Assembly: GCF_004153545.1 (NCBI RefSeq)
Contig: NZ_SDVA01000004.1
Coordinates: 1-64,000, forward strand
Length of the DNA: 64,000 bases
DNA from: Serinicoccus sediminis
GTDB taxonomy: Bacteria > Actinomycetota > Actinomycetes > Actinomycetales > Dermatophilaceae
Direction of reading: 5' to 3'
A program made the translations under genes and the position numbers. A model generated the notes under the pieces. It was not told the origin of the DNA, did not search any database, and saw only the letters and a list, made by a program, of their open reading frames with translations. Positions 1,597 through 60,386 of this stretch are shown here, piece by piece; positions within the stretch are counted from its first letter, which is position 1; each line of letters starts with the position of its first letter.

Positions 1597-3308
1597 GCAG
1601 CGACGGGACCACCGACGGGACCACCGACCCGGGCCCGCGCGTCCCGTGGCTGAGGACGGCGCTGGGGGCGGCCGCCGTGGCCGCCCTCGCCTGGACCGCG
1701 ACGCTGCCCGGCGGTTGGGGTGCAGACGGGACCGCCAGCACGGACGCGGCGACCCGCTCCGGCCCCGTCGTCGACGACGCCGAGGCGGTCCTCGTCGAGC
1801 AGGCCGCCCTGGGCTGTGCAGGACACGACGTCCTGTCCGGGCAGGTGCGAGCCGTGACGGCGCCGGAGCAGCTCGTGGCCCCTGGAGGGGCGGGGACGGG
1901 CGGCCTGGACCTCCTGGGCCCACAGGGCCCTCCTGCGGACCCGGTGCCGTTCGTCCACGGTGGGGAGCCGGCCTCCGCGCGGCTGGAGACCGAGGCCTCG
2001 GCGTCGGTCACCGCCACCGGGGGTGCCGCGCCGGGGCTGGTGGCCGGGCAGGTCCTGGTCGGTCCCGGGCCGGGAGCCCGCAGCGACGGCGACGAGGGTG
2101 CCGGCGAGGCCGACGAGGACACCGACGGGGAGCAGGCCGACGGGGGCGAGGATGACGCCGGGAGCGTGGCCGGGGGCAGCGCGCCGCGCGGGATCGGCCT
2201 GTCCGGGTGCGTCCAGCCCGGGGAGGAGCACTGGGTGCTGGCCGGGGGACCGGCGGCGGGACGGACCGAGAGCCTCGTGCTCACCAACCCCGGGGCCGAC
2301 CCGGTGCGCGTCGACCTGGAGCTGCGGGGCGAGGACGGGCCGGTCCGCGTCACCGGAGGCTCGGGGCTCGTGGTGGCGCCGGGTGACCGGCTGGTGCGAC
2401 CGCTCGACGCGCTGGCCGGCGGCGTCGAGGCACCCGCGCTGAGGGTGAGCGCGGAGGGCGGCCCGGTCGCGGCCCAGCTGGTCGAGACCTACCGGGACGG
2501 CACCACCGAGCTGGGCGTGGCCGTCACCTCCCCGGCGGCCACCCCGGCGCGCGACCTGGTCGTCCCCGCCGTGCCCGCCGGTGAGCCCACGGACCTCGTC
2601 CTGCGGGTGCTGGCGCCCGAGGCTCCGGCGGTCGTGGAGCTCGGTGTCCTGACCGAGGCCGGTCGGGTGACGCCCAGGACCGCGGCCGTGCGGGTGGCCG
2701 CCGGGTCGACCACCGACGTGCCGCTGGACGAGCTCGCCGACGGCGCGGCCGGCCTGCGGCTGCGCTCGGACGTCCCGGTCACGGCAGCGCTGCAGGTCCG
2801 GGCGACCCCCGCCGACGACGCCCCCGCGGAGGACGCGACGGCCACCGCCCGGCCCGGTGCCGACGACGCCGTCTCGACCACCAGGGCCCCCGGCGACCGG
2901 CCCCAGGTGATACGTCCCGCCGGCGACCTCGCCTGGCTGCCGGCGACCTCCCTCTCCACCCAGCCAGTGGGCATGGCCGTCCCGGACCTCGCCGACGTCC
3001 CGGGGGCCCGGCTGCAGCTGTCGCTCGTCGGGCTCGACGCCACCACGGCGGAGGTCCTCCTGCGGACCGGGGAGGGAGGCACCACGTCGAGGACGGTCGA
3101 GCTGGGCAACGACTCCAGCGCGCTGGTCGAGGTGCCCGAGGGGACGACCGCGCTCTGGGTCCGACCCGCCCGGCCGGCCATGCCGGGAGTCGCCGCCGCG
3201 CTGCACCTCACCGGCCAGGACGATCTCGGTCCCTACCTCGCCGCGACCACCCTGCGCCCGGTGCCGTGGACCCGCGAGGTCAGCCAGGTCTCCAGCGTGC
3301 TGCCCTGA
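1593..3308 (+). CDS. DUF5719 family secreted/membrane-anchored protein
   Basis: A 571-residue protein with one N-terminal hydrophobic segment (about residues 18-40, LRTALGAAAVAALAW) and then a long Ala/Gly/Asp-rich, beta-strand-like extracytoplasmic part. An acidic low-complexity linker sits near residues 160-190. It starts at GTG 1593, overlapping the previous stop by four bases, so the two are probably translationally coupled. In actinobacteria DUF5719 proteins travel with a large membrane glycosyltransferase and with DUF3499/phosphomannomutase genes, which points to cell-envelope glycan work. No catalytic motif is visible and no biochemical function is assigned here. Confidence 0.6.
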   Translation: MSSDGTTDGTTDPGPRVPWLRTALGAAAVAALAWTATLPGGWGADGTASTDAATRSGPVVDDAEAVLVEQAALGCAGHDVLSGQVRAVTAPEQLVAPGGAGTGGLDLLGPQGPPADPVPFVHGGEPASARLETEASASVTATGGAAPGLVAGQVLVGPGPGARSDGDEGAGEADEDTDGEQADGGEDDAGSVAGGSAPRGIGLSGCVQPGEEHWVLAGGPAAGRTESLVLTNPGADPVRVDLELRGEDGPVRVTGGSGLVVAPGDRLVRPLDALAGGVEAPALRVSAEGGPVAAQLVETYRDGTTELGVAVTSPAATPARDLVVPAVPAGEPTDLVLRVLAPEAPAVVELGVLTEAGRVTPRTAAVRVAAGSTTDVPLDELADGAAGLRLRSDVPVTAALQVRATPADDAPAEDATATARPGADDAVSTTRAPGDRPQVIRPAGDLAWLPATSLSTQPVGMAVPDLADVPGARLQLSLVGLDATTAEVLLRTGEGGTTSRTVELGNDSSALVEVPEGTTALWVRPARPAMPGVAAALHLTGQDDLGPYLAATTLRPVPWTREVSQVSSVLP

Positions 3309-3314
3309 CGAGGG

Positions 3315-3388
3315 TCCGACCGGTCCGACCGGTCCGACCGGCCCGACCGGACCGGACCGGCCCGACCGGACCGGACCGGCCCGACCGG
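3315..3388. repeat. short GC-rich tandem repeat between convergent genes
   Basis: Three copies of TCCGACCGG are followed by CCCGACCGG, then two alternations of ACCGGACCGG and CCCGACCGG. The whole array lies between the stop codons of the convergent DUF5719 and zincin-like genes. The repeated CCGG core could fold into many small hairpins, so it may help terminate both transcripts. It could equally be a slippage-prone simple repeat. Confidence 0.7.
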
Positions 3389-3395
3389 CCCCCTC

Positions 3396-3782
3396 TCAGA
3401 CCAGGTCGTCGGGGTCCCGCCCCAGCATGCGGGCCACCTGCTCGACGACCACCTCGGTGACGAGGGCGGCCAGCTCGGTCTCGTCGGCGGCCCGGTGCAC
3501 GACCGGGCGGCGGTAGACGACGAGACGCGCCGGCACGTCGCGCTCGGCGGGGAACAACCGCCCCAGCGCCACGCCGTGCTCCCAGGGCGCCGGGTCCGAG
3601 GGCGGCACCTCCTCGACGGCGAGCTCGAGACCGAGCGTGGTGTCCAGGCGGCGCTCGAGCGTCTCGACGGCGTCCAGCACGAGCTCGTCGAAGCGGTCCC
3701 GGCGGGTCCGCATGACCGGGACGCCCGGTCGGGCGAGCGGTCCCCGCAGCCCGTGCCCACGGCGGTCCCGACGCGTCGTCAT
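3396..3782 (-). CDS. zincin-like metallopeptidase family protein, HExxH not visible
   Basis: A 128-residue protein with an Arg-rich N-terminus (MTTRRDRRGHGLRGPLARPG). The layout, with a mid-protein ARLVVYRRPV strand and a C-terminal amphipathic helix, matches the actinobacterial metallopeptidase-like family found beside DUF3499. The place where zincins carry HExxH reads TEVVVEQVARMLG, so both metal-binding histidines are absent. As I recall, close actinobacterial relatives share VVVEQVA, so the loss may be a subfamily trait and the protein may not be a peptidase. A -10-like TAGGGT (3795-3790 on the minus strand) ends 7 bases before the ATG, so the mRNA is probably leaderless. It is transcribed away from DUF3499. 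Confidence 0.6.
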   Translation of the reverse strand: MTTRRDRRGHGLRGPLARPGVPVMRTRRDRFDELVLDAVETLERRLDTTLGLELAVEEVPPSDPAPWEHGVALGRLFPAERDVPARLVVYRRPVVHRAADETELAALVTEVVVEQVARMLGRDPDDLV

Positions 3783-3865
3783 GAGCGTGACCCTAGGGCA
3801 CCGGGCACCGCCCGGGACGGGGTGGCACCGCAGGTTGGTGGGTGCGGACGCCTAGAGTGTCGGGC

Positions 3866-4237
3866 GTGACCCTGACTCGCCAGTGCTCGAAGACGGCGTG
3901 CGTCCGCCCCGCCACGTCGACGCTCACCTACGTCTACGCGGAGCAGACCGCCGTGCTGGGGCCGCTGGCGACCTACGCCGAGCCGCACAGCTACGACCTC
4001 TGCGAGGAGCACGCCACGCGGCTCACCGCCCCGCGCGGCTGGGACGTGGTGCGGCTGGAGCTGCCCGAGGGCGAGCCCCGCCCGCCGGTGGACGACCTGG
4101 CCGCCCTCGCCGACGCCGTCCGCGAGCACCGCGGCACCATCGTGCGGGTGGACCCCGGCGCCGCTGCCGAGCGGGAGGGTGCGACGGTCACCGAGATCGC
4201 CCGTCGTGGTCACCTTCGGGTCCTGCGCGACCGCTGA
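3866..4237 (+). CDS. DUF3499 family protein
   Basis: A 123-residue protein starting VTLTRQCSKTACVRPA. It has CxxxxC at the N-terminus and later CEEHATRLTAPRGWDVVRLE, the pattern of actinobacterial DUF3499 proteins, where the Cys/His residues may bind zinc. GTG 3866 was chosen because TAGAGT (3853-3858) lies 7 bases upstream, a leaderless arrangement; an upstream in-frame ATG at 3842 would lie before this -10. The gene precedes phosphomannomutase by 26 bases, the usual actinobacterial order. The function is unknown. Confidence 0.75.
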   Translation: MTLTRQCSKTACVRPATSTLTYVYAEQTAVLGPLATYAEPHSYDLCEEHATRLTAPRGWDVVRLELPEGEPRPPVDDLAALADAVREHRGTIVRVDPGAAAEREGATVTEIARRGHLRVLRDR

Positions 4238-4263
4238 CCACCGGCCCGCGGACGGAGCACGAC

Positions 4264-5676
4264 ATGCAGGTGGCCGACGTCATCACGGCCTACGACATCC
4301 GGGGCCGCACGCCCCAGCCGCTGACCCCTGAGGTCGCCCGGGTCCTCGGCGCCGCGTTCGCGCAGGTGGTCGTCCTGCCGGAGGGGCACCGCGGGGCGGT
4401 CCTCGGGTGGGACATGCGTGAGACCTCCCCCGGGCTGGCCGACGCCTTCGCCGACGGGCTGCGCGAGCACGGGGTGGACGCCACCCTGGTGGGGCTCTGC
4501 TCCACCGACGCGCTCTACTACGCCAGCGGCTCCCGGGACGAGCCCGGGGCCATGGTCACGGCGAGCCACAACCCCGCGGGCTACAACGGCATCAAGCTGT
4601 GCCGCGGCGCGGCCCGCCCGGTCGGCCAGGAGTCCGGCCTGGGCGAGATCCGCGACCTCGCCCAGTGGCTCCTCGACCGGGGCGACCTGCACACCCTGCC
4701 CACCGGCCCGCGGGGGACCCTGCGGCACCTCGACGTCCTGCCGGACTACGCCGCCCACCTGCACTCCCTCGTCGACCTGGAGGGCGTCCGCCCGCTGCGC
4801 CTCGTCGTCGACGCCGGCAACGGCATGGCCGGGCTGACGGTCCCCGCCGTGCTGGGCATCGAGGGCCTCCCGCTCACCGTCGACCCGCTCTACTTCGACC
4901 TCGACGGCACCTTCCCCCACCACGACGCCAACCCCCTCGACCCCGCCAACGTGCGAGACCTCCAGGAGGCCGTCGTGGCCTCGGGAGCCGACCTCGGTCT
5001 GGCCTTCGACGGCGACGCCGACCGGGTCGTGCTGGTCGACGAGCGGGGCCGGCAGGTGCCCGCCAGCGCGGTGGCGACCCTCATCGCCACCCGTGAGGTC
5101 GCCCGGGACGTCGGGGCCGGACGCCGGCCCGAGGACATCGCCGTGGTCCACGGCTCGGTCGTCTCCCGTGGCGTGCTGGAGACGATGGACGAGCTGGGCG
5201 TGCGGCTCGTGCGCTCACCCGTCGGCCACTCCTTCGTCAAGGCGCGGATGGCGCAGCACGAGGCGGTCTTCGGGGCCGAGCACTCGGCCCACTACTACTT
5301 CCGCGACTTCTGGTACGCCGACAGCGGGCTCCTCGCCGCCCTCCACGTCCTGGCCGCGCTGGGGCGGCAGGACGGGCCGCTCTCGGCCCTGCTCGCGCCC
5401 CTCGACCGCTACGCCGCCTCCGGCGAGATCAACAGCCGGGTGGGCGACGTCGCGGCTGCCGTCGAGCGGGTGCGGCGGTGGGCGAGCGACGAGGGGGCCC
5501 GCGAGGTCGAGGGGGACGGTCTGCTCATGAGCAACGAGGGGGACCCCTTCTGGTGGGTGTCCCTGCGGGCCAGCAACACCGAGTCGCTGCTGCGGCTCAA
5601 CGTCGAGGCGCGGGACGGTGAGACGATGGGCCGGGTCCGGGACGCCGTCCTGGCGCTGGTGAGACAGGAGGCCTGA
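4264..5676 (+). CDS. manB: phosphomannomutase/phosphoglucomutase
   Basis: A 470-residue alpha-D-phosphohexomutase. It would interconvert hexose 6- and 1-phosphates, here most likely mannose for GDP-mannose and envelope glycans. Visible motifs are the N-terminal YDIRG, the phosphoserine loop TASHNPAGYNGIK (about residues 100-112), the metal-binding DGDADR (about 250) and the C-terminal phosphate-binding segment SLRASNTESLLRLNVEA. The frame is open well upstream, but ATG 4264 gives the conserved N-terminus. It is followed after 2 bases by the Trm112-like gene and then the SIS isomerase, so these form one operon. Confidence 0.9.
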   Translation: MQVADVITAYDIRGRTPQPLTPEVARVLGAAFAQVVVLPEGHRGAVLGWDMRETSPGLADAFADGLREHGVDATLVGLCSTDALYYASGSRDEPGAMVTASHNPAGYNGIKLCRGAARPVGQESGLGEIRDLAQWLLDRGDLHTLPTGPRGTLRHLDVLPDYAAHLHSLVDLEGVRPLRLVVDAGNGMAGLTVPAVLGIEGLPLTVDPLYFDLDGTFPHHDANPLDPANVRDLQEAVVASGADLGLAFDGDADRVVLVDERGRQVPASAVATLIATREVARDVGAGRRPEDIAVVHGSVVSRGVLETMDELGVRLVRSPVGHSFVKARMAQHEAVFGAEHSAHYYFRDFWYADSGLLAALHVLAALGRQDGPLSALLAPLDRYAASGEINSRVGDVAAAVERVRRWASDEGAREVEGDGLLMSNEGDPFWWVSLRASNTESLLRLNVEARDGETMGRVRDAVLALVRQEA

Positions 5677-58163: not shown

Positions 58164-58886
58164 TCAGTGCTGGTGACGCCCCCGGGCGGCCAGCAGCACA
58201 CCGCCCAGCCCGAGCGCCATCACACCGGCGCCGAGGCCGATGAGCAGCGGGTCCCCGGTCCCGGGGGCCTCGCCGCCGGTCTCCGCGCCACCGACCGGGA
58301 TCTCCTGCAGCTGGCCGCGCACGGCGCCGGGCAGGAACTCCGAGGTGTGCGTGTCCGCGGAGAAGCCCGCGGGGTCGGCCTCGATCTCGGCGAGCGAGAA
58401 GCCCTCGCCGGTGTCGTTGCCGTCGTCCCCCTCCAGCCCGGTGGTGAAGGGACCCTGCAGGCAGCCGGAGCTGGTCCGCACGTCGCCGTCACCGGTCGGG
58501 TTCGGGAAGGCCAGGCGCGGCGGGCCGCCCTCGCCGGCGTTCGCCTGGTGGACGTGGGTGGCGGTCTTGGCCGGGCTGTCGTACTCCCCGGTGACGCCGG
58601 TGAGCTCGATCTCGTAGCAGATGATCTCCTCGTCGGAGTTGATCATGAACGTGAACATGCCCATGGCGCCCTCCTCGCCGGGAGCCGGGTTGCCGTCGCC
58701 GTCCACGACGTTCTCCGGCGTGGCGGTCACCGAGTAGGCCGAGGTGAAGGTGTCGGGCATCTCGACCTCGGTCTCGGCGGAGGCCGGCAGGGTGCCGGCG
58801 GCCACCAGGGCCAGCGCCCCGAGGCCGCCCCCGGCGGCGGTGAGGCCGCGGCGGGCGCGGCGGGTCGTGATCGTCGTCGTGCTCAT
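58164..58886 (-). CDS. secreted CHRD-domain protein with C-terminal membrane anchor
   Basis: A 240-residue exported protein. The N-terminal signal (TRRARRGLTAAGGGLGALAL, cleaved near ASA) is followed by a CHRD-like domain (ICYEIELTGV and ATHVHQANAGEGGPPRLAFP) and a C-terminal hydrophobic helix with basic tail ARGRHQH. The tail resembles a sortase-type anchor, but no LPXTG is visible. ATG 58886 has GGGAG five bases upstream; ATG 58898 is the alternative. Its promoter carries the same bipartite motif as the divergent ECF sigma gene, so it is a predicted target of that sigma factor. Confidence 0.8.
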   Translation of the reverse strand: MSTTTITTRRARRGLTAAGGGLGALALVAAGTLPASAETEVEMPDTFTSAYSVTATPENVVDGDGNPAPGEEGAMGMFTFMINSDEEIICYEIELTGVTGEYDSPAKTATHVHQANAGEGGPPRLAFPNPTGDGDVRTSSGCLQGPFTTGLEGDDGNDTGEGFSLAEIEADPAGFSADTHTSEFLPGAVRGQLQEIPVGGAETGGEAPGTGDPLLIGLGAGVMALGLGGVLLAARGRHQH

Positions 58887-58930: not shown

Positions 58931-58965
58931 AGGGGTATACGTCGGCACGGGCAGGTGCGTTCAAC
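58931..58965 (-). promoter_or_regulatory. predicted ECF-sigma promoter of the CHRD gene
   Basis: On the minus strand, GTTGAACG is followed after 15 bases (counted from GAACG) by ACGTATACCCCT (58942-58931). Both boxes and the exact spacing are repeated in the divergent promoter of the sigma gene. The leader to ATG 58886 is about 35-45 bases. Confidence 0.65.
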
Positions 58966-58992
58966 GGCGCCCGGGTCCGTTCTGGGAGACTG

Positions 58993-59027
58993 GTCGAACG
59001 TCGGGCAGCCCGGCGACGTATACCCCT
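58993..59027 (+). promoter_or_regulatory. predicted autoregulated promoter of the ECF sigma gene
   Basis: GTCGAACG (GAACG at 58996-59000), a 15-base spacer and ACGTATACCCCT (59016-59027) match the CHRD promoter on the opposite strand. The leader to ATG 59054 is about 20 bases and includes a strong ribosome binding site, GGAGGGAG. Confidence 0.65.
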
Positions 59028-59053
59028 CTGACCACGGCAGGAGGGAGCGGACC

Positions 59054-59629
59054 ATGACGAGCGCCGGCCTCGCCGTGCTGGAGGACGCTGCCGAAGGGGA
59101 GGCGAGACCGCTGAGCGGACCGGACTTCGACGTCGCGCGCGTCTTCGACGAGCACGGCTCCCTGCTCCTCGGCCTCGCCGTCAACGCCCTCGGCGACCGG
59201 CACGCGGCGGAGGACTGCGTCCAGGAGACGCTGGTGCGCGCCTGGCGGGCCCGTGACACCTACCGCCCCGAGCAGGGCTCGGAGCGCACCTGGGTGGTCG
59301 CCATCGCGCGCCGCGTCATCATCGACAGCCTGCGCGCCCGGGCCCGCAGGCCCCTCGACGTGCGGGCCGAGCCCCCCGAGCCGGGGCCGGAGCCCGGTGT
59401 GGACACGCAGGTGGCCGACCGGGTGACCCTGCTGGCCGGGCTGGCCCGGCTGAGTCCCGAGCACCGGGAGGTGGTCGTCGAGGTGCAGGTCCGCGGTCTG
59501 TCCTACGAGGAGCTGTCCCGGCGCACCGGCGTGGCCGTGGGGACCCTGCGGAGCCGGATGTACTACGCCCTGCGCGCGCTGCGCGCCCTGCTCACCGAGG
59601 AGGCTGACCATGACGACCCCCGTGGGTGA
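59054..59629 (+). CDS. ECF RNA polymerase sigma factor (SigK-like)
   Basis: A 191-residue sigma factor with region 2 (DEHGSLLLGLAVNALGDRHA, AEDCVQETLVRAWRARDTY, RTWVVAIARRVIIDSLRAR) and region 4 (LARLSPEHREVVVEVQVRGL and LSYEELSRRTGVAVGTLRSR). ATG 59054 follows GGAGGGAG; a longer frame from 58925 would cross the promoter. It is co-transcribed with the anti-sigma gene, overlapping it by 20 bases. Region architecture and context (anti-sigma, divergent secreted protein) recall SigK-RskA of mycobacteria, which control secreted MPT70/83 proteins. Confidence 0.88.
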   Translation: MTSAGLAVLEDAAEGEARPLSGPDFDVARVFDEHGSLLLGLAVNALGDRHAAEDCVQETLVRAWRARDTYRPEQGSERTWVVAIARRVIIDSLRARARRPLDVRAEPPEPGPEPGVDTQVADRVTLLAGLARLSPEHREVVVEVQVRGLSYEELSRRTGVAVGTLRSRMYYALRALRALLTEEADHDDPRG

Positions 59630-60386
59630 CCGTGACGAGCTGGTGCTCGCCGCCGCAGAGGGGACGCTGGACGACGCACAACGGGCGCGGCTGGACGCCC
59701 TGCGGGCGGACGACCCGACGGTGGACGAGGAGATCGCCGAGCTGCGCGCGACGCTGGACGCGGTGCGCCGGCTGGACGGCTGGGACGAGCAGGCCATGGA
59801 CCTCACGCCGTCCCCGCTGGTCCTCCGGCGCGCCCAGCAGCAGGTCGCCACCGAGGGGCGTGAGCCGCTGCGGCGCGGGGGTGCCGGCGCCGGGGCGGGC
59901 ACGACCGACGGCCGTGCCGACGGCGCTGACGCCGGCCGTCACGGCGGTGCCCGGCCCGGGCGGCGGGCCCTGCTCGGGCTCGCGGCCGCCGGGCTGGTGG
60001 CGCCCGGGGCTGTCGGGCAGGACGTCGTGCGCCGCCTGCGCCCGGGCACCCCGGAGGGCGACCCGGGCACCCTCGGGGCCCTCGAGCAGGCCGCGGTTGA
60101 GGGGGTCGCCCCGGGCGCGGAGGTCGACCTCGGGATCATCGCCCACACCTGGGGCACCGAGACGGTCTGGCTCGTCGACGGCGCCCAGCCGGGCGAGGTC
60201 TACGACGTCGTGCTCGTCGACCGCTCCGGCGGGCGGACCGGCTCGGGCAGCTTCCTCGGCACCCGTGACCCGCTCGACTGCGAGATGAACGCCGCGATCC
60301 TGCGCGAGGACGTCGCCGAGGTGCTCGTGGTCGCGGCCGGCGGCCAGGTCTGGGCCCGCGCCCCGCTGCCCCCCGTCCGGGCGTGA
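59610..60386 (+). CDS. membrane anti-sigma factor (RskA-like)
   Basis: A 258-residue protein. The N-terminal cytoplasmic part (ELVLAAAEGTLDDAQRARLD, about residues 10-55) should bind the sigma factor. It has no HxxxCxxC zinc motif. A Gly/Ala/Arg-rich linker is followed by one membrane helix (ALLGLAAAGLVAPGAVG, about 112-130) and an extracytoplasmic domain with VWLVDGAQPGEVYDVVLVDR. The domain order fits RskA-type anti-sigma factors released by intramembrane proteolysis. ATG 59610 has GAGGAGG (59597-59603) inside the sigma gene. A twin-arginine-like RPGRRALLGLAAAG precedes the helix. Confidence 0.8.
   Translation: MTTPVGDRDELVLAAAEGTLDDAQRARLDALRADDPTVDEEIAELRATLDAVRRLDGWDEQAMDLTPSPLVLRRAQQQVATEGREPLRRGGAGAGAGTTDGRADGADAGRHGGARPGRRALLGLAAAGLVAPGAVGQDVVRRLRPGTPEGDPGTLGALEQAAVEGVAPGAEVDLGIIAHTWGTETVWLVDGAQPGEVYDVVLVDRSGGRTGSGSFLGTRDPLDCEMNAAILREDVAEVLVVAAGGQVWARAPLPPVRA

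Follow-up and report, generated by a model that had tools for sequence, protein, structure and literature searches.

A predicted autoregulated ECF sigma factor module with a CHRD-domain surface protein in Serinicoccus sediminis and its relatives

In the stretch of Serinicoccus sediminis DNA analyzed in this study (64,000 nucleotides, hereafter the window), an ECF sigma gene and a gene for a CHRD-domain surface protein are divergently oriented, and a copy of the same short motif is found in front of each. The question raised by this locus is whether both copies are promoters read by the local sigma factor, so that the sigma factor, a putative anti-sigma factor and the CHRD protein form one regulatory module.

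Genes and twin sites of the locus

The features of the locus are as follows.

58164-58886, minus strand: CHRD-domain surface protein of 240 aa, ATG at 58886 (PF07452, 3.9e-14)
58931-58963, minus strand: predicted promoter of the CHRD gene, with -35 TGAACG (58963-58958), N16 and -10 CGTATA (58941-58936), then CCCCT
58995-59027, plus strand: predicted promoter of the sigma/anti-sigma operon, with -35 CGAACG (58995-59000), N16 and -10 CGTATA (59017-59022), then CCCCT
59039-59044, plus strand: AGGAGG, read from the sequence as the probable ribosome binding site for the sigma ORF
59054-59629, plus strand: ECF sigma factor of 191 aa, ATG at 59054, SigL-related and not SigK (Pfam, NCBIfam, PDB match and tree)
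59610-60386, plus strand: predicted anti-sigma factor of 258 aa, sharing the first 20 bases of its gene with the end of the sigma gene

The first-pass annotation of this DNA had described each copy as GAACG, 15 bases and ACGTATACCCCT, running from GAACG at 58996-59000 to 59027 on the plus strand and from GAACG at 58962-58958 to 58931 on the minus strand, with a common extension to GTYGAACG. Both copies were recovered as described, and with the extension they read GTCGAACG and GTTGAACG. Written as promoter boxes with a tail, the plus-strand copy is CGAACG-N16-CGTATACCCCT (58995-59027) and the minus-strand copy is TGAACG-N16-CGTATACCCCT (58963-58931). YGAACG-N16-CGTATA is the better promoter parse, because the CHRD side of one congener has C, not A, before CGTATA. 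The first base of the -35 box is 59 bases from the start codon of the sigma gene (59054) and 77 bases from that of the CHRD gene (58886).

When up to two mismatches were allowed, the window contained two matches, compared with 0.06 expected from shuffles. A genome-wide search (3,547,192 bases in 97 contigs) returned these two sites as the only exact matches. Two further places were found in the genome at two mismatches, versus five for the reversed control pattern; thus, only the exact pair stands out. A chance origin of the twin sites is unlikely. A larger regulon reached through the exact motif was rejected, given that the genome is without any third exact site. A list compiled with TGAACG-N16-CGTATA and up to two mismatches (40 places in the genome, of which just two had one mismatch or none, versus 26 for the reversed pattern) was set aside.

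The sigma factor is of the ECF type. It matched PF04542, PF04545 and PF08281 at 73.9, 36.6 and 34.7 bits, respectively, each above the cut-off, and no other sigma region was found in it. The CHRD protein, which scored 54 bits with PF07452 (cut-off 24.1), consists of a hydrophobic N-terminus ending in ASA-E, the CHRD domain (53-193) and a C-terminus with a GGAETG motif, a hydrophobic segment and a basic tail. With the GVDTG sorting model NF058571, it reached 10.1 bits, below the cut-off of 29. Among 17 aligned CHRD proteins, H111, H113, H180, C90 and C142 were invariant, consistent with a possible metal site and a possible disulphide. An AlphaFold2 model of the CHRD protein, built from three near-identical rows, had a mean pLDDT of 35.7 and was discarded.

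The predicted anti-sigma factor matched no anti-sigma family of Pfam, RskA_N and RskA_C being absent, and its best E value with an anti-sigma model of NCBIfam was 0.053. The two orthologs tested (L158 and L169) also matched anti-sigma models of NCBIfam below their cut-offs, and that of L169 scored 22.7 bits with RskA_C (cut-off 29.4). The window protein is alignable to the anti-sigma factor of G049, a genome from another genus of the same family, which carries a zf-HC2 domain (32 bits) and an HxxxCxxC motif; this motif is missing from the window protein. In addition, the window protein has a weak hydrophobic segment at residues 122-140 and a conserved C-terminal part with HTWGTE. The best 19-residue hydropathy was 1.42 for the window protein and ranged from 1.42 to 1.63 in the genus, compared with 1.99-2.60 in 13 others. 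The first-pass description as a membrane anti-sigma factor thus suits the orthologs outside the genus, whereas the window protein is marginal in this respect.

Lineage of the sigma factor and promoter type

Among all models, the highest score of the window sigma factor was 140.1 bits with PRK09645 of NCBIfam (cut-off 202, not reached), which we take to be the SigL model. Its nearest solved relative was SigL of Mycobacterium tuberculosis (6dv9; E 2.3e-24), with SigE next at 1.7e-20 and SigK at 3.4e-13. Of the 19 module sigma factors, 17 formed one group (99/96) when a tree was built from 46 sigma factors. The remaining two, L108 (that of G049, on a long branch and with an unsure place) and L164, formed a sister group with L127. 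The module sigma factors and L127 were all within a group of 21 rows (98/92), apart from the SigL-like set.

Among 22 SigL-like sigma genes from the family that fell outside that group, 19 had TGAAC[CT]-N16-CGT upstream, where ~130 bases before the first aligned codon were scanned and spacers of 15-17 were allowed; it was missing upstream of L118, L126 and L135. Because these relatives show matching geometry, the 16-base spacing is regarded as a feature of the lineage. According to excerpts of PMC6372665, SigL of M. tuberculosis favours G at -11 via Asp60, and the sigL promoter is transcribed by the SigL holoenzyme. None of the 19 module sigma factors has Asp in the Asp60 column, where P, A, G, S or E is found instead. 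The window sigma factor has Ala and Pro in the His54 and Asp60 columns of SigL, respectively, and Pro or Ala is found in the latter column throughout the genus. Different from the G wanted by SigL, -11 is A at both window sites and at the module sites, a base that the search pattern fixed. Moreover, the -35 box of the module ends in G and that of the SigL type in C.

The region-4 helix also varied together with the -35 box. T[LW]R[STR]R[MAL] goes with TGAACG or CGAACG, TVRSRL with TGAACA (G049) and TVKSR[TA] with TGAACC. This parallel is a correlation along the tree with few independent changes, and as such not a proof.

Some further sites were noted among the sigma genes compared. L127 (G157) contains, at 2808-4900, a gene for a DUF4394 protein, then a sigma gene of the same wider group and then an anti-sigma gene, with TCAACG-N16-CGTACCC, seen by eye, before the DUF4394 gene. 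In L109 (G061), TCAACA-N16-CGTATCCCC, a -35 variant, was seen by eye at ~3605, before the sigma gene. Finally, the SigL-like loci L113, L119, L120, L121, L122, L134 and L137 of the same family have close divergent TGAACC-N16-CGT pairs away from the sigma gene, such as that at +1569/-1566 of L113. Twin divergent promoters of the SigL type may be a common layout.

Conservation of the module and its sortase companion

Sigma orthologs were identified in 6 of 31 genomes of the genus (76-100% identity, own genome included), and the other 25 gave no match at E 1e-25. In all six, the CHRD ortholog is divergent from the sigma gene, with motif copies towards both genes. The exact pattern GAACG-N16-CGTATACC was found at 10 places when the 31 genomes were scanned, all at the module and all in these six genomes; the remaining 25 contained no exact site. 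The CHRD-side spacers varied among the six genomes and the boxes were kept, except in G003 and G020, where the CHRD-side copy was CGTATCCC with one mismatch (CGTATC for CGTATA). With one mismatch allowed, 49 places were found in the 31 genomes, of which 12 were module sites and 37 were off the module, and the reversed control had 12. The 37 off-module sites were read as putative background, and the reversed control may understate chance because it gave so many fewer places than were found off the module.

A search for related loci yielded two close Serinicoccus relatives, four matches of 28-32% identity being left out. When the family was searched with the CHRD domain of Pfam, 32 of 186 genomes matched. 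A sigma homolog was near the CHRD gene in 6 of 29 fetched loci besides our own, five from the genus and that of G049; the other 23 were without such a sigma gene in their flanks of ~1.5 kb. Hence, the linkage is a property of one CHRD subtype, not of CHRD proteins generally. In the own genome, the CHRD search showed the window gene only and missed the CHRD gene on another contig, C86 (26.2 bits by hmmscan), so that absence in such searches is weak evidence.

The class was searched with an alignment of five CHRD rows (394 genomes, threshold E 1e-20), and 14 genomes from 7 of 138 genera matched, own included. The 13 further genomes with a CHRD ortholog span 4 other families. A sigma homolog was beside the CHRD gene in 12 of these 13 loci (E 1e-34 to 1e-54), divergent in 11 and convergent in L164. 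In the thirteenth, L168, which is near a contig end, neither a sigma gene nor the motif was found. Similarly, an anti-sigma homolog accompanied the sigma gene in 12 of the 13 loci, that of L164 being found only with the G049 protein as query.

The CHRD gene is often followed by a sortase gene. In G049, the genes for CHRD, sortase, sigma and anti-sigma are consecutive on one strand, with TGAACA-N16-CGTATATCCC upstream of CHRD (boxes TGAACA-N16-CGTATA). A homolog of the G049 sortase followed CHRD in 11 of the 13 class loci, with a weak and short match in L163, and was missing after CHRD in L164 and L168. The two module sortases scored with the class F model NF033748 (cut-off 166) reached 158.6 bits (G049) and 148 bits (L158), a little below that cut-off; for both, class F was the top class, far above the other classes. 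The sortase domain of Pfam was above its cut-off in all four module sortases given (L157, L160, L165, and L169). The GVDTG sorting model (cut-off 29) was passed by four of the five CHRD orthologs scored, i.e., those of G049 (52.2 bits), L158 (38.5), L157 (33.0) and L165 (31.1), and failed by that of L169 (22.1). The sigma factor, anti-sigma factor and secreted CHRD protein of the first-pass parts list were retained, but the list had overlooked a class F-type sortase as their usual companion. In the genus, no sortase match was obtained in the five stretches scanned (3.6-9 kb), and all sortase matches of the own genome were on contigs other than that of the window. Given this lack of a sortase at the locus, the GGAETG motif of the genus, the score of the window protein below the cut-off of the sorting model and the weak anti-sigma segment, the genus may hold a reduced form of the system.

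The motif was counted in ~200 bases upstream of the genes at 20 loci (six of the genus, G049 and the 13 of the class) and compared with dinucleotide shuffles. YGAACG-N16-CGTA was present upstream of CHRD at 18 of 20 loci (~0.010 expected) and upstream of the sigma gene at 14 of 19 (~0.007 expected); conservation of the boxes is partly circular, because the search pattern fixed them, and that of the CCC after the -10 box, which was unselected, is not. On the CHRD side, the exact copy was lacking in G049 (TGAACA) and L168 (none). On the sigma side, it was lacking in five loci: reading by eye showed a copy with one deviating base in L161 and in L165 and with two in L158, L164 matched the relaxed pattern only, and in G049 the sigma gene is inside the operon. 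With a stricter pattern, YGAACG-N16-CGTANNCC, 20 genomes picked for holding this CHRD gene had 42 places, 29 at the module and 13 elsewhere (0-2 per genome, in 11 genomes), and the reversed control had 3. In three of the 20 (G049, G524, and G282), no module site fitted this pattern. The 13 off-module sites may be chance or extra targets; inspection of the ORFs flanking seven of them revealed no clear target.

One motif is therefore found at the predicted promoter of the sigma gene and at that of its putative target, in sequence as well as in conservation, as looked for under autoregulation. Its recurrence before both genes in other families supports the module of sigma factor, anti-sigma factor and secreted CHRD protein that had been proposed from the window. 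The two copies, which form an inverted repeat between divergent genes, could instead be the operator of a separate repressor or activator. This is improbable, however, because the 14 loci that have both copies differ in how far apart the first bases of their -35 boxes are (21-58 bases), the non-divergent layouts, with a convergent sigma gene in L164 and a shared operon in G049, keep a single copy before CHRD, and the 16-base spacing matches SigL-like promoters.

It is about as improbable that the sites are genuine promoters but serve a different ECF sigma factor of the genome, their linkage to the local sigma gene being incidental. The own genome does encode further ECF sigma factors, including SigK on C86 and one on contig C12. 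However, related sigma genes are preceded by the same box spacing, and motif and sigma gene co-occur in most loci of other families. Moreover, the exact sites of the genus are confined to the same 6 of 31 genomes that hold the local sigma gene.

Further ECF modules of the genome, proposed mechanism and meaning

The first-pass annotation had regarded the window sigma factor as SigK-like. This was not borne out. With PRK09646, it scored 71.1 bits (cut-off 226) and its nearest relative is SigL; SigK identity was rejected in view of the models, the PDB match and the tree. The own genome seems to contain two further modules of comparable composition.

~3600-6735 of C86:47000-56000 (L170), genes in one direction: SigK module with SigK, RskA, CHRD protein and sortase
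~2674-5608 of C12:46500-56000 (L171), minus strand: third module with DUF4397 surface protein, sortase, ECF sigma factor and presumed anti-sigma factor

The sigma factor of C86 is a true SigK (239.6 bits, above the cut-off of 226), 29% identical to the window sigma factor. Its partner is an anti-sigma factor with RskA_N and RskA_C domains, and the locus also contains a second CHRD protein (26.2 bits, cut-off 24.1) and a sortase. Upstream of this CHRD gene, CAATCC-N16-CGAACC was seen by eye, which presumably resembles the SigK consensus. The anti-sigma factor of C12 was assigned from its translation only. Together with the window locus, the own genome thus apparently has three ECF modules centred on a surface protein, of which two include a sortase.

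A SigK-RskA system (ECF18/19) in which CHRD replaces MPT70/83 is a very unlikely account of the window locus. The layout is alike in principle, i.e., sigma factor, anti-sigma factor and secreted target, and excerpts of PMC7509140 describe, across phyla, a mpt83-sigK-rskA cassette that carries a SigK site. However, the SigK model is far from satisfied by the window sigma factor, which the tree also separates from SigK; the window anti-sigma factor is without an RskA domain; and the true SigK-RskA pair, with a CHRD protein of its own, is on C86. Finally, chance or recent common ancestry without function hardly accounts for the likeness of the sites: the six genomes of the genus are closely related and, of the five other sigma-side sites of the genus, four are identical in the printed stretch, but the CHRD-side spacers of the genus differ, the boxes are also found, with different spacers, in 4 other families and only ~0.01 sites are expected per side.

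The reading that we prefer, with a probability of roughly 85% on the basis of sequence comparison, is thus a single autoregulated ECF module. Its sigma factor would drive itself, the anti-sigma factor and the CHRD surface protein via the predicted divergent promoters. The anti-sigma factor would release the sigma factor after a signal across the membrane, probably one from the envelope. The released sigma factor would recognize TGAACG/CGAACG, a 16-base spacer and CGTA(T) at both promoters. Transcription of its own operon would provide positive feedback as well as more inhibitor, and transcription of the CHRD gene would provide the output. The CHRD protein is predicted to be exported by its signal sequence, with the C-terminal segment holding it at the surface. 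In most relatives, it would be linked to the wall via the GVDTG-type signal by the class F-type sortase whose gene directly follows CHRD. In the genus of the window, the sortase of the locus would have been lost or never present, and another class F-type sortase of the genus may serve instead. A more speculative extension, which we regard as doubtful, is that the anti-sigma factor uses its extracytoplasmic HTWGTE domain to sense the CHRD protein or how far it has been sorted. Surface anchoring would then be self-tuning, and the main task of the sigma factor would be to adjust the amount of a single wall-anchored protein and of the class F sortase dedicated to it.

Several known systems resemble this module in part. 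SigL of M. tuberculosis is the nearest solved sigma factor, and the TGAAC-N16-CGT geometry is common to SigL-like sigma genes of the family. RslA, the partner of SigL, is a zinc-type anti-sigma factor with HxxxCxxC; different from SigL-RslA, the window anti-sigma factor is without this motif and the target of the module is a CHRD protein. Similar to SigK-RskA-MPT83/MPT70, the module pairs a sigma factor and an anti-sigma factor with an adjacent secreted target, but its sigma factor is of another lineage, its anti-sigma factor in the window has no RskA domain match and its target is CHRD. The clusters of C86 and C12 have a like parts list, i.e., a secreted protein with a C-terminal hydrophobic segment, a sortase, an ECF sigma factor and a presumed anti-sigma factor. 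Their sigma factors are of other lineages and their genes run in one direction, whereas the window locus is divergent and without a sortase. The enzyme class of SrtF1-4 of Actinoplanes missouriensis is the best match of the module sortases scored (G049 and L158).

As described in excerpts of PMC7509140, mpt83-sigK-rskA is an ECF cassette with a surface protein that is conserved across genera. Among the matches listed in our literature search, no paper tied CHRD proteins to ECF sigma factors or class F sortases. Thus, ECF cassettes with a surface protein are already known, whereas those matches described neither the control of CHRD by such a sigma factor nor its combination with a class F sortase. 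According to excerpts of PMC13251363, the quadruple deletion of SrtF1-4 in A. missouriensis had no phenotype and class F sortases have no known physiological role; these excerpts name no regulator or substrate for SrtF1-4.

The module offers class F sortases a testable role. It predicts CHRD with its GVDTG-type signal as the substrate, together with a regulator specific to the system and a precisely defined promoter, and the system could be turned on by expressing the sigma factor, without awaiting a chance condition. In addition, the -35 boxes TGAACG, CGAACG, TGAACA and TGAACC with their sigma factors are a natural series of sigma-promoter pairs for reading ECF specificity. If anchoring were indeed self-tuning, class F sortases would gain a substrate and a regulator as well as a physiological context.
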